DNA of 64,000 nt from Pseudoxanthomonas sp. SE1 (lineage in GTDB: Bacteria > Pseudomonadota > Gammaproteobacteria > Xanthomonadales > Xanthomonadaceae): positions 1,231,001-1,295,000 of the forward strand of contig NZ_CP113783.1 in assembly GCF_029542205.1 (NCBI RefSeq), written 5' to 3'. This document shows positions 8,760 to 38,261 of this stretch, in pieces. The translations under genes were made by a program, and so were the position numbers. Numbering within the stretch: position 1 is the stretch's first letter; every line of letters starts with the position of its first letter. A model generated the notes under the pieces. That model was given only the letters and a program-made list of their open reading frames with translations. It did no database searches and was not told the origin of the DNA.

Positions 8760-9901
8760 GCGATGTCGTCGAACTGTCCAGCGAGCTGATCCGTCGCCAT
8801 TCGGTGACGCCCGATGACGCCGGTTGCCAGCAGGTGCTCGCGACACGCCTCGGCCAATGGGGCTTCCATTGCGAACACCTGCGCTTTGGCGACACCGACA
8901 ACCTGTGGGCCACGCACGGAACCGGCTCACCGGTGCTGGTGCTGCTCGGACATACCGATGTGGTGCCGCCCGGCCCGCTGGATGCGTGGACCAGCGATCC
9001 CTTTGTGCCGACGGTGCGCGACGGGGTGCTCTACGGCCGCGGTACGGCCGACATGAAATGCAGCCTGGCGGCGTGCACGATCGCGCTGGAGCGTTTCGTC
9101 GACGCGCACCCGGACCATCCCGGGACGGTTGCGCTGCTGGTGACCTCGGACGAGGAAGGCGACGCGCACGATGGCGTAAAGAAGGTAGCCGCGCTGTTCC
9201 GGGAGCGTGGCCAGAAGATCGACTGGTGCATCACCGGCGAACCCTCGTCCAAGGAGGTCCTGGGCGACCTGCTGCGCGTGGGGCGCCGCGGCACGTTGAC
9301 CGCGACGCTGACCGTGCGCGGTGTGCAGGGCCATGTGGCGTATCCGCACAAAGCTCTCAACCCCATCCACAAGGCGCTGCCGGCGCTGGACGAGCTGGCG
9401 GCGCGGCAGTGGGACGAAGGCTACGAAACCTTCCCGCCGACCAGCCTGCAGATTTCCAACATCCATTCCGGTACCGGCGCCAGCAATGTCATCCCGGGCG
9501 AGTTGCAGGTGGTGTTCAACCTGCGCTTCAATCCCAGCTGGACAGCGGAACGGCTGGAGCAGGAGATCGAGGGCATCTTCCGTCGCCACGGCGTGGACTA
9601 CAGCCTCCAGTGGCTGCGCGGCGGCGAGCCGTTCTACACGCCGGAGGGCCACCTGCGCGCCACCGCGCGCGCGGTGCTGGGCGAATTCGCTGGTGCGCCG
9701 CCGGAGGAGAGCACGGCCGGCGGCACGTCCGATGCGCGCTTCATCGCACCGCTGGGTGCGGAATGCATCGAGGTGGGACCGGTCAACGCCAGCATCCACA
9801 AGGTCGACGAAAACATCCGCGTGACGGATCTCGATGCGCTGCCCGGCCTTTACCAGAAGCTGCTTGAGCGGCTGATGCTGCCGGTTCGCGCTGCTTTGTA
9901 G
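8756..9901 (+). CDS. dapE: Succinyl-diaminopimelate desuccinylase
   Basis: Di-zinc M20 hydrolase that releases succinate from N-succinyl-LL-DAP, giving the precursor of meso-DAP and lysine; 381 aa. Metal ligands and base are in place: [11 protein letters not shown] (His66), the bridging Asp99 in YGRGTADMK, and the Glu pair 133-134 in VTSDEEGDA. The dimerisation domain contains [21 protein letters not shown]. It starts inside the stop codon of the preceding gene (ATGA). Its own TAG stop is formed by the first bases of an intergenic repeat. Confidence 0.97.
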
Positions 9902-9971
9902 GAGCGCCCTGGGGCGCGATGCCTTTCACGCCTGTTCCTCTGAAACATCGCGCCCGAGGGCGCTCCTACAG
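9897..9971. repeat. Palindromic repeat after dapE
   Basis: TGTAGGAGCGCCCTGGGGCGCGATG...CATCGCGCCCGAGGGCGCTCCTACA forms a long imperfect hairpin. Its left end contains the dapE stop codon (TAG, 9899-9901). It may also limit read-through toward asnB. Confidence 0.75.
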
Positions 9972-10007: not shown

Positions 10008-10037
10008 TTGCCAAGCGCTGGCCTGAGCGGTTACGGT
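10008..10037 (+). promoter_or_regulatory. Candidate promoter of the asnB leader
   Basis: TTGCCA (10008-10013) and TACGGT (10032-10037) are 18 bases apart. The -10 match is weak (3 of 6). Transcription would start next to the leader-peptide ATG at 10044, so the leader frame may itself be leaderless. Confidence 0.3.
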
Positions 10038-10043
10038 CGCCCC

Positions 10044-10127
10044 ATGCCCTGCCGCACCTACATCAATAACAACCGCAACAACCTGCGCCCGAACAACGGG
10101 ACGCGGGCGATGCGGCTCTGCGACTAG
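10044..10127 (+). CDS. Asparagine-rich leader peptide of asnB
   Basis: A 27-codon frame from ATG to TAG encodes a peptide with the core YINNNRNNLRPNN: seven asparagine codons among twelve consecutive positions (10065-10097). It resembles the leader peptides of classical amino-acid attenuators but is enriched for Asn, the product of the next gene. Between the last Asn codon and the stop lies a segment that can form an antiterminator (10107-10115). No recognisable ribosome site precedes the ATG; a leaderless start is possible. I infer that ribosomes stalling here for lack of charged Asn-tRNA raise asnB transcription. Confidence 0.75.
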   Translation: MPCRTYINNNRNNLRPNNGTRAMRLCD

Positions 10128-10179
10128 GCAAGAAAGACCTGCCGGATTCCAGAAACCCGCATCGCAAGATGCGGGTTTC
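10086..10179 (+). promoter_or_regulatory. Transcription attenuator of asnB (mutually exclusive hairpins)
   Basis: Three alternative pairings can be read. (1:2) CGCCCG (10086-10091) with CGGGCG (10104-10109). (2:3) GCGATGCGG (10107-10115) with CCGCATCGC (10157-10165), nine perfect pairs. (3:4) GAAACCCGCATC (10152-10163) with GATGCGGGTTTC (10168-10179), a 12-bp stem with a GCAA loop followed by CTCGTTTC, the terminator. Segments 1 and 2 lie in the leader frame, segment 2 just after the Asn codons. A ribosome stalled on Asn codons would cover segment 1 and free 2 to pair with 3. A ribosome reaching the stop would cover 2 and let the terminator form. Confidence 0.75.
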
Positions 10180-10226
10180 CTCGTTTCAGGCCCCCGATTC
10201 CGAACCCCACCCAGGAGCTTCCACCC

Positions 10227-11930
10227 ATGTGTTCCATCTTCGGCATCTTCGGGCTGCAGCCCGGCGACGACGTCCAGGCCCTGCGACGGCAGTCGCTGGA
10301 ACTCTCGCAGAAGCAGCGCCACCGCGGCCCCGACTGGAGTGGCGTGTATCACGACCATGGCGCCATCCTGGTGCACGAGCGCCTGGCCATTGTCGATCCG
10401 GCCGGTGGCTCGCAGCCGCTGCGCTCGGCGGACGGCGAGCTGGTGCTGGCGGTCAACGGCGAGATCTACAACCATCGCGAACTGAAGGCGGAACTGACGC
10501 AGGACTACGCGTTCCAGACGGGCTCGGACTGCGAGGTCATCAATGCGCTGTATCGCGAGGACGAACCTGCCTCCTTCCTCAACCGCCTCAACGGCATCTT
10601 CGCGTTCGCGCTGTGGGATCGGGCGAAAGGGCAGGCCTTGATCGCGCGCGACCCGCTGGGCGTCTGCCCGCTGTACTGGGGACACGACCGCGAAGGCCGC
10701 CTGTGCGTGGCCTCGGAGATGAAGGCGCTGGCGCCGATCTGCGCGGACGTGGCGCAGTTTCCGCCGGGCCACTACTACGACACCACCAGCAGGACGCTGG
10801 TGAAGTACTACGAGAAGCCGTGGCGCGACTATGCCGCCGTGGAAGGCGTGGAGCTGGCCAAGCAGGAACTGCGCGAAGCCTTCGAGCGCGCCGTGCATCG
10901 CCAGCTGATGACCGATGTGCCCTACGGCGTGTTGCTGTCCGGTGGCCTGGATTCCTCGCTGGTCGCGGCGGTCGCGGCGCGTTATGCGCGGCACCGCATC
11001 GAGGACAACGACACGACCGAAGCCTGGTGGCCGCGGCTGCACTCGTTCGCCATCGGGTTGGAAGGGTCGCCCGACCTGGCGGCGGCGGAGGTCGCGGCGA
11101 AGGCATTGGGCACCGTGCACCACGGCTTCACGTACACGTTCCAGGAAGGTCTCGATGCGATTCCGGAAGTGATCCGCCACATCGAAACCTACGATGTCAC
11201 CACCATCCGTGCGTCAACGCCGATGTACCTGCTGGCCCGTCGCATCAAGGCGATGGGCGTGAAAATGGTGCTGTCGGGCGAGGGCAGCGATGAGATCTTC
11301 GGTGGCTACCTGTATTTCCACAAGGCACCGAACGCACGCGAATTCCACGAGGAGCTGGTGCGCAAGCTGGACGCGCTGCACAACTACGATTGCCTGCGCG
11401 CCAACAAGTCGATGATGGCCTGGGGCGTGGAGCCGCGCGTGCCGTTCCTCGACGTGGAGTTCCTCGATGTGGCGATGAAGATGGATGCCCTGCACAAGAT
11501 GATCGACAAGGGCAGTGCCGGCGCACAGCGGATGGAAAAGGGCGTATTGCGCGAGGCGTTCGAGGGCTATCTGCCGGAGTCGATCCTGTGGCGGCAGAAA
11601 GAGCAGTTCAGTGACGGCGTCGGCTACGGCTGGATCGACGGGCTGAAGGCACATGCGGAAGCACAGGTCAGCGATCGTGAACTGGCGGCGGCCGACAAGC
11701 GCTTCCCGGTCAACCCGCCGCAGACCAAGGAGGCGTACTTCTATCGCACGCTGTTCGAGCAGCACTACCCCGGGCAGGCTTGTGCGGAGACGGTGCCGGG
11801 CGGAAAGTCGATCGCGTGCTCGTCGCCGGCCGCCATCGCCTGGGACGCCAGCTTCGCGAAGATGGCGGATCCCTCGGGCCGCGCCGTCGCTGGCGTGCAT
11901 GCGTCCGCGCTGCAGGCGACGACGACATGA
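10227..11930 (+). CDS. asnB: Asparagine synthetase B (glutamine-hydrolysing)
   Basis: Converts aspartate, ATP and glutamine to asparagine; cytoplasmic; 567 aa. The N-terminal class II glutaminase begins MCSIFGIFG with the nucleophile Cys2, followed by RHRGPDWSG and VNGEIYNH. The synthetase domain has the pyrophosphate loop LLSGGLDSS (near 237) and LSGEGSDEIFGGY. The sequence tracks E. coli AsnB almost throughout, including the end DPSGRAV. A good ribosome site (AGGAGCTT) lies 7 bases before the ATG. The upstream region carries an Asn-codon leader and attenuator, so transcription is probably controlled by Asn-tRNA charging. Its stop overlaps the next gene (ATGA). Confidence 0.96.
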   Translation: MCSIFGIFGLQPGDDVQALRRQSLELSQKQRHRGPDWSGVYHDHGAILVHERLAIVDPAGGSQPLRSADGELVLAVNGEIYNHRELKAELTQDYAFQTGSDCEVINALYREDEPASFLNRLNGIFAFALWDRAKGQALIARDPLGVCPLYWGHDREGRLCVASEMKALAPICADVAQFPPGHYYDTTSRTLVKYYEKPWRDYAAVEGVELAKQELREAFERAVHRQLMTDVPYGVLLSGGLDSSLVAAVAARYARHRIEDNDTTEAWWPRLHSFAIGLEGSPDLAAAEVAAKALGTVHHGFTYTFQEGLDAIPEVIRHIETYDVTTIRASTPMYLLARRIKAMGVKMVLSGEGSDEIFGGYLYFHKAPNAREFHEELVRKLDALHNYDCLRANKSMMAWGVEPRVPFLDVEFLDVAMKMDALHKMIDKGSAGAQRMEKGVLREAFEGYLPESILWRQKEQFSDGVGYGWIDGLKAHAEAQVSDRELAAADKRFPVNPPQTKEAYFYRTLFEQHYPGQACAETVPGGKSIACSSPAAIAWDASFAKMADPSGRAVAGVHASALQATTT

Positions 11931-36962: not shown

Positions 36963-38261
36963 ATGCGTTATTCCCTCCTGGCTGCCGCGCTTGCCGTCGC
37001 CATGGGCAGCACCAGCTTTTCGGCCGCGGCTGCCGACACCCGTGACCAGCAGATCGCCGAACTGAGGGCGCAGCTGGAAGCCATGCAGACCAAACTGCTG
37101 GAACTGGAAGAGCGTACCGACGCGCAGTCGGACGTGAACCTGGACACGGCCGCGCAGCTGGACAAGCTCAACACCGGTTCGCCGAAGATCGACACCAAGG
37201 GCGGCATCAAGGTGACCTCGGCCGACGGCAAGTTCGAAGCCTCCGTGGGCGGCCGCATCCACTTCGACACCTACGCGTTCGATCGCGATATCGCCAGCAC
37301 CACCGGCACCACCGAGTTCCGCCGCGCCCGCCTGACCCTGGGCGGCAAGGCTTACGGCTGGGATTACAAGCTGGAGCAGGACTTCGGCGCCGGCACCAAC
37401 CTGGACGGCCTGCGTGACGCCTACATCGCCAAGTCGGCGCTGGGCGGCAAGTTCACCATCGGTCACTTCAAGCCGTACCGCGCGATGGAAGAACTGACCA
37501 GCTCCAACGAACTGCTGGTGATGGAGCGTCCGTTCGCCTCCGCCACGGGCCTGTTCGGCGGTCGCCAGTTCCAGCAGGGCGTGGGTTACCTGCGTGCCGG
37601 CGACAACTACACCGCCGGTGCCACCGTGTTCAACCTGCGCGGCGCGGCCAGCTCGCGCAACGAAGGCATGGGTGCTTCCGGCCGCGTGACCTTCGCGCCG
37701 ATCAACAACGACAACAACACCCTGCACCTGGGCGCGTGGTACAGCTACGAGAACGCCAACCAGGGTTCGGACAACCTGTCGGCCTCCTTCAACTACGCCG
37801 GTCGTCGCGGTCCGTCGCAGAACATCGCCACCACCACCGGCGCCAGCCGCAATGAAGTCACCGTGTACGCCGTCGAAGCCGCTGGCTCGTTCGGCCCGGC
37901 GTTCTTCCAGGCCGAGTACGCCGACGCCTCGTTCGGTCAGCCGCTGGGCGCGGACCAGGACGTGAAGACGTACTACGTGCAGGGCAGCTTCATGCTCAAC
38001 GGTGGCCACAAGCCGTACAAGGGCGGCACCGGCGTGTTCGGCTCGCCCAAGGTCGCCGACAAGGGCCTGTGGGAGCTGACCGGTCGCTACGACTACGCGG
38101 AGAATGAAACGCTGAACCGCGAAGTCACCAGCTGGATCCTCGGCATGAACTACTACGTCAACCCGAACCTGCGCTTCATGTTCAACTACACGCAGGGCGA
38201 CAACGAAGTCACCGGCGACGAGACCGCCCAGTACGCACTGCGCACGCAGTTCAGCTGGTAA
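36963..38261 (+). CDS. OprP/OprO-type phosphate-selective porin
   Basis: 432-aa outer-membrane porin. Signal peptide (1-24, SAAAA|D), then a heptad coiled coil (about 27-53, QQIAELRAQLEAMQTKLLELEERT) as in trimeric OprP-like porins, then a 16-strand-type beta-barrel with alternating hydrophobic strands, ending in aromatic Trp (TQFSW). OprP-family features include FRRARLTLGGKAYGWDYKLEQDF, LRDAYIAKSALGGKFTIGHFKP and MEELTSSN. It diverges from pstS copy 2 and has a Pho box, so phosphate uptake across the outer membrane under starvation is very likely. Start by GGAGA upstream. Confidence 0.93.
   Translation: MRYSLLAAALAVAMGSTSFSAAAADTRDQQIAELRAQLEAMQTKLLELEERTDAQSDVNLDTAAQLDKLNTGSPKIDTKGGIKVTSADGKFEASVGGRIHFDTYAFDRDIASTTGTTEFRRARLTLGGKAYGWDYKLEQDFGAGTNLDGLRDAYIAKSALGGKFTIGHFKPYRAMEELTSSNELLVMERPFASATGLFGGRQFQQGVGYLRAGDNYTAGATVFNLRGAASSRNEGMGASGRVTFAPINNDNNTLHLGAWYSYENANQGSDNLSASFNYAGRRGPSQNIATTTGASRNEVTVYAVEAAGSFGPAFFQAEYADASFGQPLGADQDVKTYYVQGSFMLNGGHKPYKGGTGVFGSPKVADKGLWELTGRYDYAENETLNREVTSWILGMNYYVNPNLRFMFNYTQGDNEVTGDETAQYALRTQFSW

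Follow-up and report, generated by a model that had tools for sequence, protein, structure and literature searches.

The interval between dapE and asnB in Pseudoxanthomonas sp. SE1 very probably contains a ribosome-mediated transcription attenuator that senses the charging of tRNA-Asn and controls asnB, the gene for the glutamine-hydrolysing asparagine synthase B. This reading had been put forward in a first-pass annotation of a 64,000-nt stretch of the genome (here called the window), which made it depend on the conservation of Asn codons and competing stems in related bacteria. Comparison supported it: the Asn codons of a small leader ORF, the terminator and the antiterminator were all found to be kept across three families. 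The Asn-rich ORF, the terminator, the antiterminator pairing, their spacing and the genomic setting together support an attenuator, as far as sequence comparison can. From these features we infer the start of transcription, the translation of the ORF, the stalling of ribosomes and the response to asparagine, and asnB would be regulated through the sensing of Asn-tRNA charging.

Layout of the dapE-asnB region

The genome is a single contig of 4.23 Mb, and its AsnB is 95-96% identical to relatives in Pseudoxanthomonas genomes. NCBIfam matches revealed glnD, dapD and dapE upstream of asnB (10227..11930; on the forward strand, as are the leader elements described below), which is the proposed regulated gene and whose product scored above cut-off with both PRK09431 (880.7 bits, cut-off 499) and TIGR01536. 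The dapE-asnB gap contains, successively, a putative promoter, the leader ORF, a 12-bp hairpin, a Shine-Dalgarno sequence (AGGAG, 10213..10217) and the asnB start. The leader ORF (10044..10127) begins with the ATG at 10044, ends with a TAG and lacks a Shine-Dalgarno sequence; its 27 codons encode MPCRTYINNNRNNLRPNNGTRAMRLCD, in which seven Asn codons are found (10065, 10068, 10071, 10077, 10080, 10092 and 10095). Direct reading of the window bore out both this frame and the 47 bases that separate the terminator hairpin from the asnB start, and the numbers in the first-pass annotation were correct. Directly 3' of dapE there is also an inverted repeat at 9898-9971 (TAGGAGCGCCC...GGGCGCTCCTAC), which is REP-like or a bidirectional terminator.

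The intrinsic terminator, hairpin 3:4 (10152..10179), has a 12-bp stem (10152-10163 with 10168-10179) and a GCAA loop. Its T-run lies mostly inside the stem and is short outside it, and a simple terminator scan of the window misses this site. Region 2, the 5' strand of the antiterminator (GCGATGCGG, 10107..10115), is located inside the leader ORF and forms 9 bp with region 3, the 3' strand (CCGCATCGC, 10157..10165), which overlaps the 5' arm of the terminator. None of 100 shuffles gave a 2:3 pairing as good as that in the window, and relatives reach 11 bp. In addition, a possible protector pairing 1:2 of 6 bp can be drawn (10086..10109; CGCCCG at 10086-10091 with CGGGCG at 10104-10109). The three pairings of 6, 9 and 12 bp described in the first-pass annotation are therefore present, and the 9-bp one excludes each of the other two. 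RNA folding of 10030-10200, which had been proposed there as a check, gave an unusually stable structure (z = -4.0), with none of 200 shuffles being equally stable.

Leader family, pairings and the proposed switch

Comparison of asnB upstream regions yielded leader ORFs at 162 of 169 loci, which correspond to 131 distinct leaders. The remaining seven were left out for various reasons: L042, L133 (contig end), L139 (masked bases), L176 and L181 (start unmatched by the pattern), L061 (GTG start) and L056 (no Asn ORF). For this set the ORF threshold was only 3 Asn in 20 codons, and two loci without an Asn ORF (L190 and L191) lie outside it.

An apparent leaderless start, which was absent from the first-pass annotation, emerged from this set. 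In the window, a putative -35 element (TTGCCA, 10008..10013) and a putative -10 element (TACGGT, 10032..10037) are separated by an 18-nt spacer, and the latter ends 6 nt before the leader ATG. This promoter is a poor sigma-70 match, and a strict consensus scan of the window called no sigma-70 site. Among the 131 leaders, 107 have their best -10-like hexamer 6 or 7 nt upstream of the ATG, compared with 9-19 in 20 sets with shuffled upstream regions; position -35 is T in 80% and position -36 in 62%, and C is found at position -1 of the ATG in 95%. SD-like words preceded the leader ATG in only 10 of the 131 (all AGGA) versus 125 for asnB itself. L061 has the same layout apart from its GTG start. 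The position of the -10-like hexamer predicts a transcription start at or beside the A of the leader ATG, and the leader ORF thus looks leaderless.

The 131 leaders comprise 18-43 codons with 3-10 Asn each. Asn accounts for 21.7% of their residues, and an Asn-Asn pair is present in 126. The peptide is almost wholly different between lineages (for example, MTAAAAAAGEHARVLNNNNANNNTRIHGWAGV in family f12), and mainly Asn is constant. Both Asn codons are used; at the 91 loci compared, AAT makes up 47% of them in leaders versus 14% in asnB itself, an excess that perhaps keeps the codons unpaired or slows decoding.

A terminator hairpin was found between leader and asnB for all 131 distinct leaders. 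The lowest real terminator score (29.7) was higher than the highest score among one shuffle per leader (24.4), and a stricter rule was passed by 128 real versus 5 shuffled sequences. With regard to the antiterminator, the 3' part of the leader and the 5' arm of the terminator reached a mean duplex score of 24.1, compared with 15.1 in shuffled leaders; at most 5 of 100 shuffles were as good in 93 leaders, whereas 38 missed that mark. In most leaders, 9-20 nt separate the end of region 2 from that of the stop codon. Arm and leader often differ in step between lineages (CCCGCATC/GATGCGGG, CCCGCGT/ACGCGGG, GGCCTGC/GCAGGCC and GGCCCGCC/GGCGGGCC). Region 3 departed from the consensus in 158 cells, in 94 of which region 2 was Watson-Crick paired (72 with both sides changed), compared with a row-shuffle expectation of 44.8 for those cells (sd 4.6, maximum 60 in 500); here, the register of each row was that of the best duplex, which favours pairing, the shuffles kept this register and the rows are related. 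In the three GGCCTGC rows, the changed arm can form no more than a G-U pair with the 3' arm, yet the leader base keeps A-U. Swapping leaders and arms between classes gave a clear result for the largest class only, and leaders of the small CCCGCGC class scored better with GGCCCGC arms than with those of their own class.

The comparison of all three stems proposed in the first-pass annotation thus had a mixed outcome, in that the terminator and the antiterminator are conserved, whereas the 6-bp pairing appeared weak as a family feature (median z -1.09; z < -2 in 24 of 131). In RNA that ended at region 2, however, this region was paired upstream by more than half in 123 of 131 leaders. A protector 1:2 that is broken by the stalled ribosome is a classical feature of attenuators, although not a universal one.

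Counted from its first base, the last Asn codon of the 131 leaders lies at a median distance of 12 nt (10-90%: 12-16) from region 2 and of 33 nt from the end of the stop codon; in the window, 9 nt separate the end of this codon (10095-10097) from region 2. A ribosome covers approximately 12-15 nt past the first base of its A-site codon. Thus, a ribosome stalled at the last Asn codons should just about reach region 2 and leave most of it free, whereas a ribosome at the stop codon should cover it. We propose that transcription begins at the A of the leader ATG and that ribosomes load on the leaderless message. With ample asparagine, a ribosome would pass the Asn codons, reach the stop at 10125-10127 and cover region 2, so that the terminator (10152-10179) could form and transcription would stop before asnB. 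Under asparagine shortage, it would stall at the Asn codons and region 2 (10107-10115) would stay free to pair with region 3 (10157-10165) once the latter is made, and RNA polymerase would continue into asnB.

In the folding model, RNA ending after region 3 formed the 2:3 pairing with a probability above 0.5 in 114 of 131 leaders when a ribosome was placed at the last Asn codon and in 103 when no ribosome was present, which makes read-through the predicted default. With the ribosome at the stop codon the count was 0 of 131, a value that is set by construction (masking was assumed) and is no evidence by itself. For the full-length RNA at equilibrium, the terminator exceeded 0.5 in 105 of 131 with the ribosome at the last Asn codon and in 83 with the ribosome one Asn codon earlier; in the window, the terminator wins (P 1.0) even with the ribosome at the last Asn codon. 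Since equilibrium favours the terminator, the proposed switch relies on the order of folding.

The ribosome-free pairing in 103 leaders also bears on another explanation, namely that the device responds to translation in general, or to transcription and translation becoming uncoupled, and that the ORF need only be translated to its stop: any failure of translation would then switch asnB on. We consider this unlikely, as it leaves unexplained both the narrow range of spacing from the last Asn codon to region 2 and the 21.7% Asn of the leaders, compared with an Asn share of 0.8-2.5% of codons in four genes of the window.

It is likewise unlikely that the leader acts as a regulatory nascent or free peptide, by arrest or in trans, with Asn mattering as residue rather than as codon. 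The block NNRARPMRVCD, which is conserved in many loci, might suggest such a role, but it is the coding side of antiterminator region 2, and lineages with other terminators end in ASLPRAGD, WAGV or RARA instead, with mainly Asn in common; Arg and Ala are also shared by the leaders, as is usual in GC-rich frames. Arrest peptides conserve specific residues and not composition, which further counts against this explanation.

Distribution, controls and the route to Asn-tRNA

To judge the leader against its genomic background, we counted every frame of 15-45 codons that begins with ATG on either strand of the window, whose GC content is 66.6%, with nested starts counted separately. At least 6 Asn in 20 codons occurred in 1 of 477 such frames, the asnB leader only. 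When the ORF filter was dropped, one further stop-free stretch of the window reached this level, at 37701 (INNDNNTLHLGAWYSYENAN). A DNA search for a second copy of the leader in the genome returned the query alone at E <= 0.001.

Among named relatives (Pseudoxanthomonas, Xanthomonas, Stenotrophomonas, Luteimonas, a few others and metagenome-assembled relatives), 78 of 79 usable loci carry, in the 400 nt upstream of asnB, a small Asn-rich ORF that reaches 5 Asn in 20 codons, and the remaining one has 3. One of 80 loci had been left out (L133, contig end), and L139 was kept although its ORF crosses masked bases. On the antisense strand of the same 79 loci, no ORF reached 5 Asn; the maximum was 3, in four loci. 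A count by family, which left out seven loci from genomes counted already and L042, found the ORF at the same threshold in 67 of 79 loci of f1, 12 of 15 of f12 and all three of f2, the f1 sample being biased to the best AsnB matches and sharing strains with the 79-locus set, so that the two counts are not independent. The f1 remainder consists of eight loci with 4 Asn in 20 codons, two with 3 and two without an ORF (L056 and L190), and that of f12 of one locus with 4, one with 3 and one without (L191); in the three families jointly, 12 loci reach just 3 or 4.

In five other families of the order (f4, f5, f7, f9 and f10), none of 34 loci had an ORF before asnB that reached this threshold of 5 Asn in 20 codons, and a terminator-like site was found in 4 of 34. 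The corresponding antisense controls gave 0 of 97 in f1, f12 and f2, and 1 of 34 in the five other families. One of the four loci with a terminator-like site, L202 in f7, has a lone Asn ORF (MFAIYNTINTTNNRLLRSAGSF) and a strong terminator before asnB, which the other 17 f7 loci examined lack. Thus, the attenuator may predate f1, f12 and f2 or may have evolved again. Outside the order, a sample of 151 genomes from the class contained, among the matches listed, one close AsnB relative from another family (G536, locus L221; 63% identity, the next listed being G442 with 40%), and no Asn leader was seen upstream of it; nor was one found within 397 nt upstream of asnB in E. coli K-12.

That the Asn-rich frame arose by chance beside an ordinary terminator that serves the dapE transcript upstream could be entertained from a single genome, as the region is GC-rich and folds easily, but its probability is negligible in view of the single such frame in the window, the conservation in three families, the empty antisense controls of their loci and the near absence of both ORF and terminator in the five other families, and we regard it as ruled out.

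A T-box or another Rfam leader was rejected as well, since no family scored above its gathering threshold in the window leader or the loci of eight relatives; the weak matches were to the terminator hairpin (e.g. Thr_leader, 17.4 bits versus 55) and to the stretch after dapE. Asn-specific T-box leaders of Firmicutes respond to tRNA-Asn charging and control asparagine genes. They bind uncharged tRNA directly without a translated ORF, whereas the asnB leader has an ORF that is predicted to be translated.

Sensing of asparagine through tRNA-Asn charging requires that the tRNA be charged with the free amino acid. In the genome studied here, asnS was found above cut-off, gatA only as a gatA-like match below cut-off and asnA not at all, and tRNA-Asn should therefore be charged from free asparagine. 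Among 31 genomes, 30 had asnS and 6 had gatA above cut-off, and none had asnA; no gatA match was above cut-off in the 19 genomes of the genus. Outside the genus (12 genomes), the six with gatA above cut-off had no close AsnB (best E 1e-15 to 1e-35, or none), and the six without it had one (E < 1e-220). Such mutual exclusion is what one would predict if genomes use one of two routes to Asn-tRNA. Where AsnB exists, free asparagine thus probably charges tRNA-Asn, as the attenuator model needs.

Relation to known attenuators and other leaders

Ribosome-mediated attenuators of the Yanofsky type are known from the trp, his, thr, ilv, leu and phe operons of proteobacteria. The asnB leader has in common with them a leader ORF rich in codons for the product, an antiterminator competing with a terminator and a biosynthetic gene downstream. 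It differs from them in the amino acid (asparagine) and the target (an asparagine synthase gene), in the position of region 2 inside the leader ORF near its stop, in that no strong 1:2 protector was seen across the family and in the apparently leaderless start. If the attenuator reading is correct, asparagine would join the amino acids sensed by leader-peptide attenuation, and the device would be a candidate for asnB control in Xanthomonadaceae and neighbouring families. It would also apparently link leaderless initiation to a transcription switch, and the 131 distinct leaders offer a natural series for comparing codons, stems and spacing.

Several leaders described elsewhere resemble parts of it. 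According to PMC7298713, the trpL/rnTrpL leader transcript of Sinorhizobium meliloti starts at the leader ATG, so that both systems combine transcription attenuation with a start at the ATG (predicted for asnB); in contrast to the asnB leader, rnTrpL concerns Trp in an alphaproteobacterium, with trans roles reported there for RNA and peptide. Mycobacteria have leaderless polycysteine ORFs (Canestrari et al., 2020, as cited in PMC9031893), and earlier leaderless Cys-rich candidates appear in PMC4633059. Like the asnB leader, which itself looks leaderless, these are small ORFs with runs of one residue upstream of genes; unlike it, they are described in PMC9031893 as regulating the translation of genes downstream, whereas an intrinsic terminator precedes asnB.

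The first-pass annotation had supposed Asn-specific attenuation to be undescribed, and in keeping with this, no Asn-specific attenuator was found among the matches listed in open-licence literature. One literature match for Asn attenuation concerns mistranslation. Asparagine goes unmentioned in the main text of PMC2965389, on premature terminators, and of PMC1262725, on Actinobacteria. Thus, the kind of control is known, and the amino acid and the combination of features appear to be new within the literature searched.

A wider interpretation, which we put forward only tentatively and think less probable than not, is that leaderless leader ORFs serve as a general means of amino-acid attenuation in Xanthomonadaceae and related families, with read-through as the default, a finishing ribosome turning the gene off and a terminated RNA that may act in trans like rnTrpL. 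Without a strong protector hairpin, read-through would be the default and the ribosome that finishes the leader would switch the gene off. Frames fitting Thr, and perhaps Ile/Leu/Val and Trp, can be cited for this interpretation; in this genome they precede a thrA-type gene, ilvC and trpE.

These three sites differ in detail. Upstream of trpE (L261), a GTG frame with WRWW begins 6 nt after TAAAGT and runs past the trpE start, with no terminator apparent by eye. Upstream of ilvC (L255), the leader frame VLVLVLI is followed by a strong terminator (CCCCGCAC...GTGCGGGG, with a T-run), and this site is likely to be a branched-chain attenuator. Finally, the frame TTLITTITTLT (L258) lies upstream of an aspartate-kinase gene, probably thrA. 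An in-frame ATG is located there approximately 8 nt after a -10-like GGTTTT, itself 17 nt behind TTGACA, and this leader may also be leaderless.
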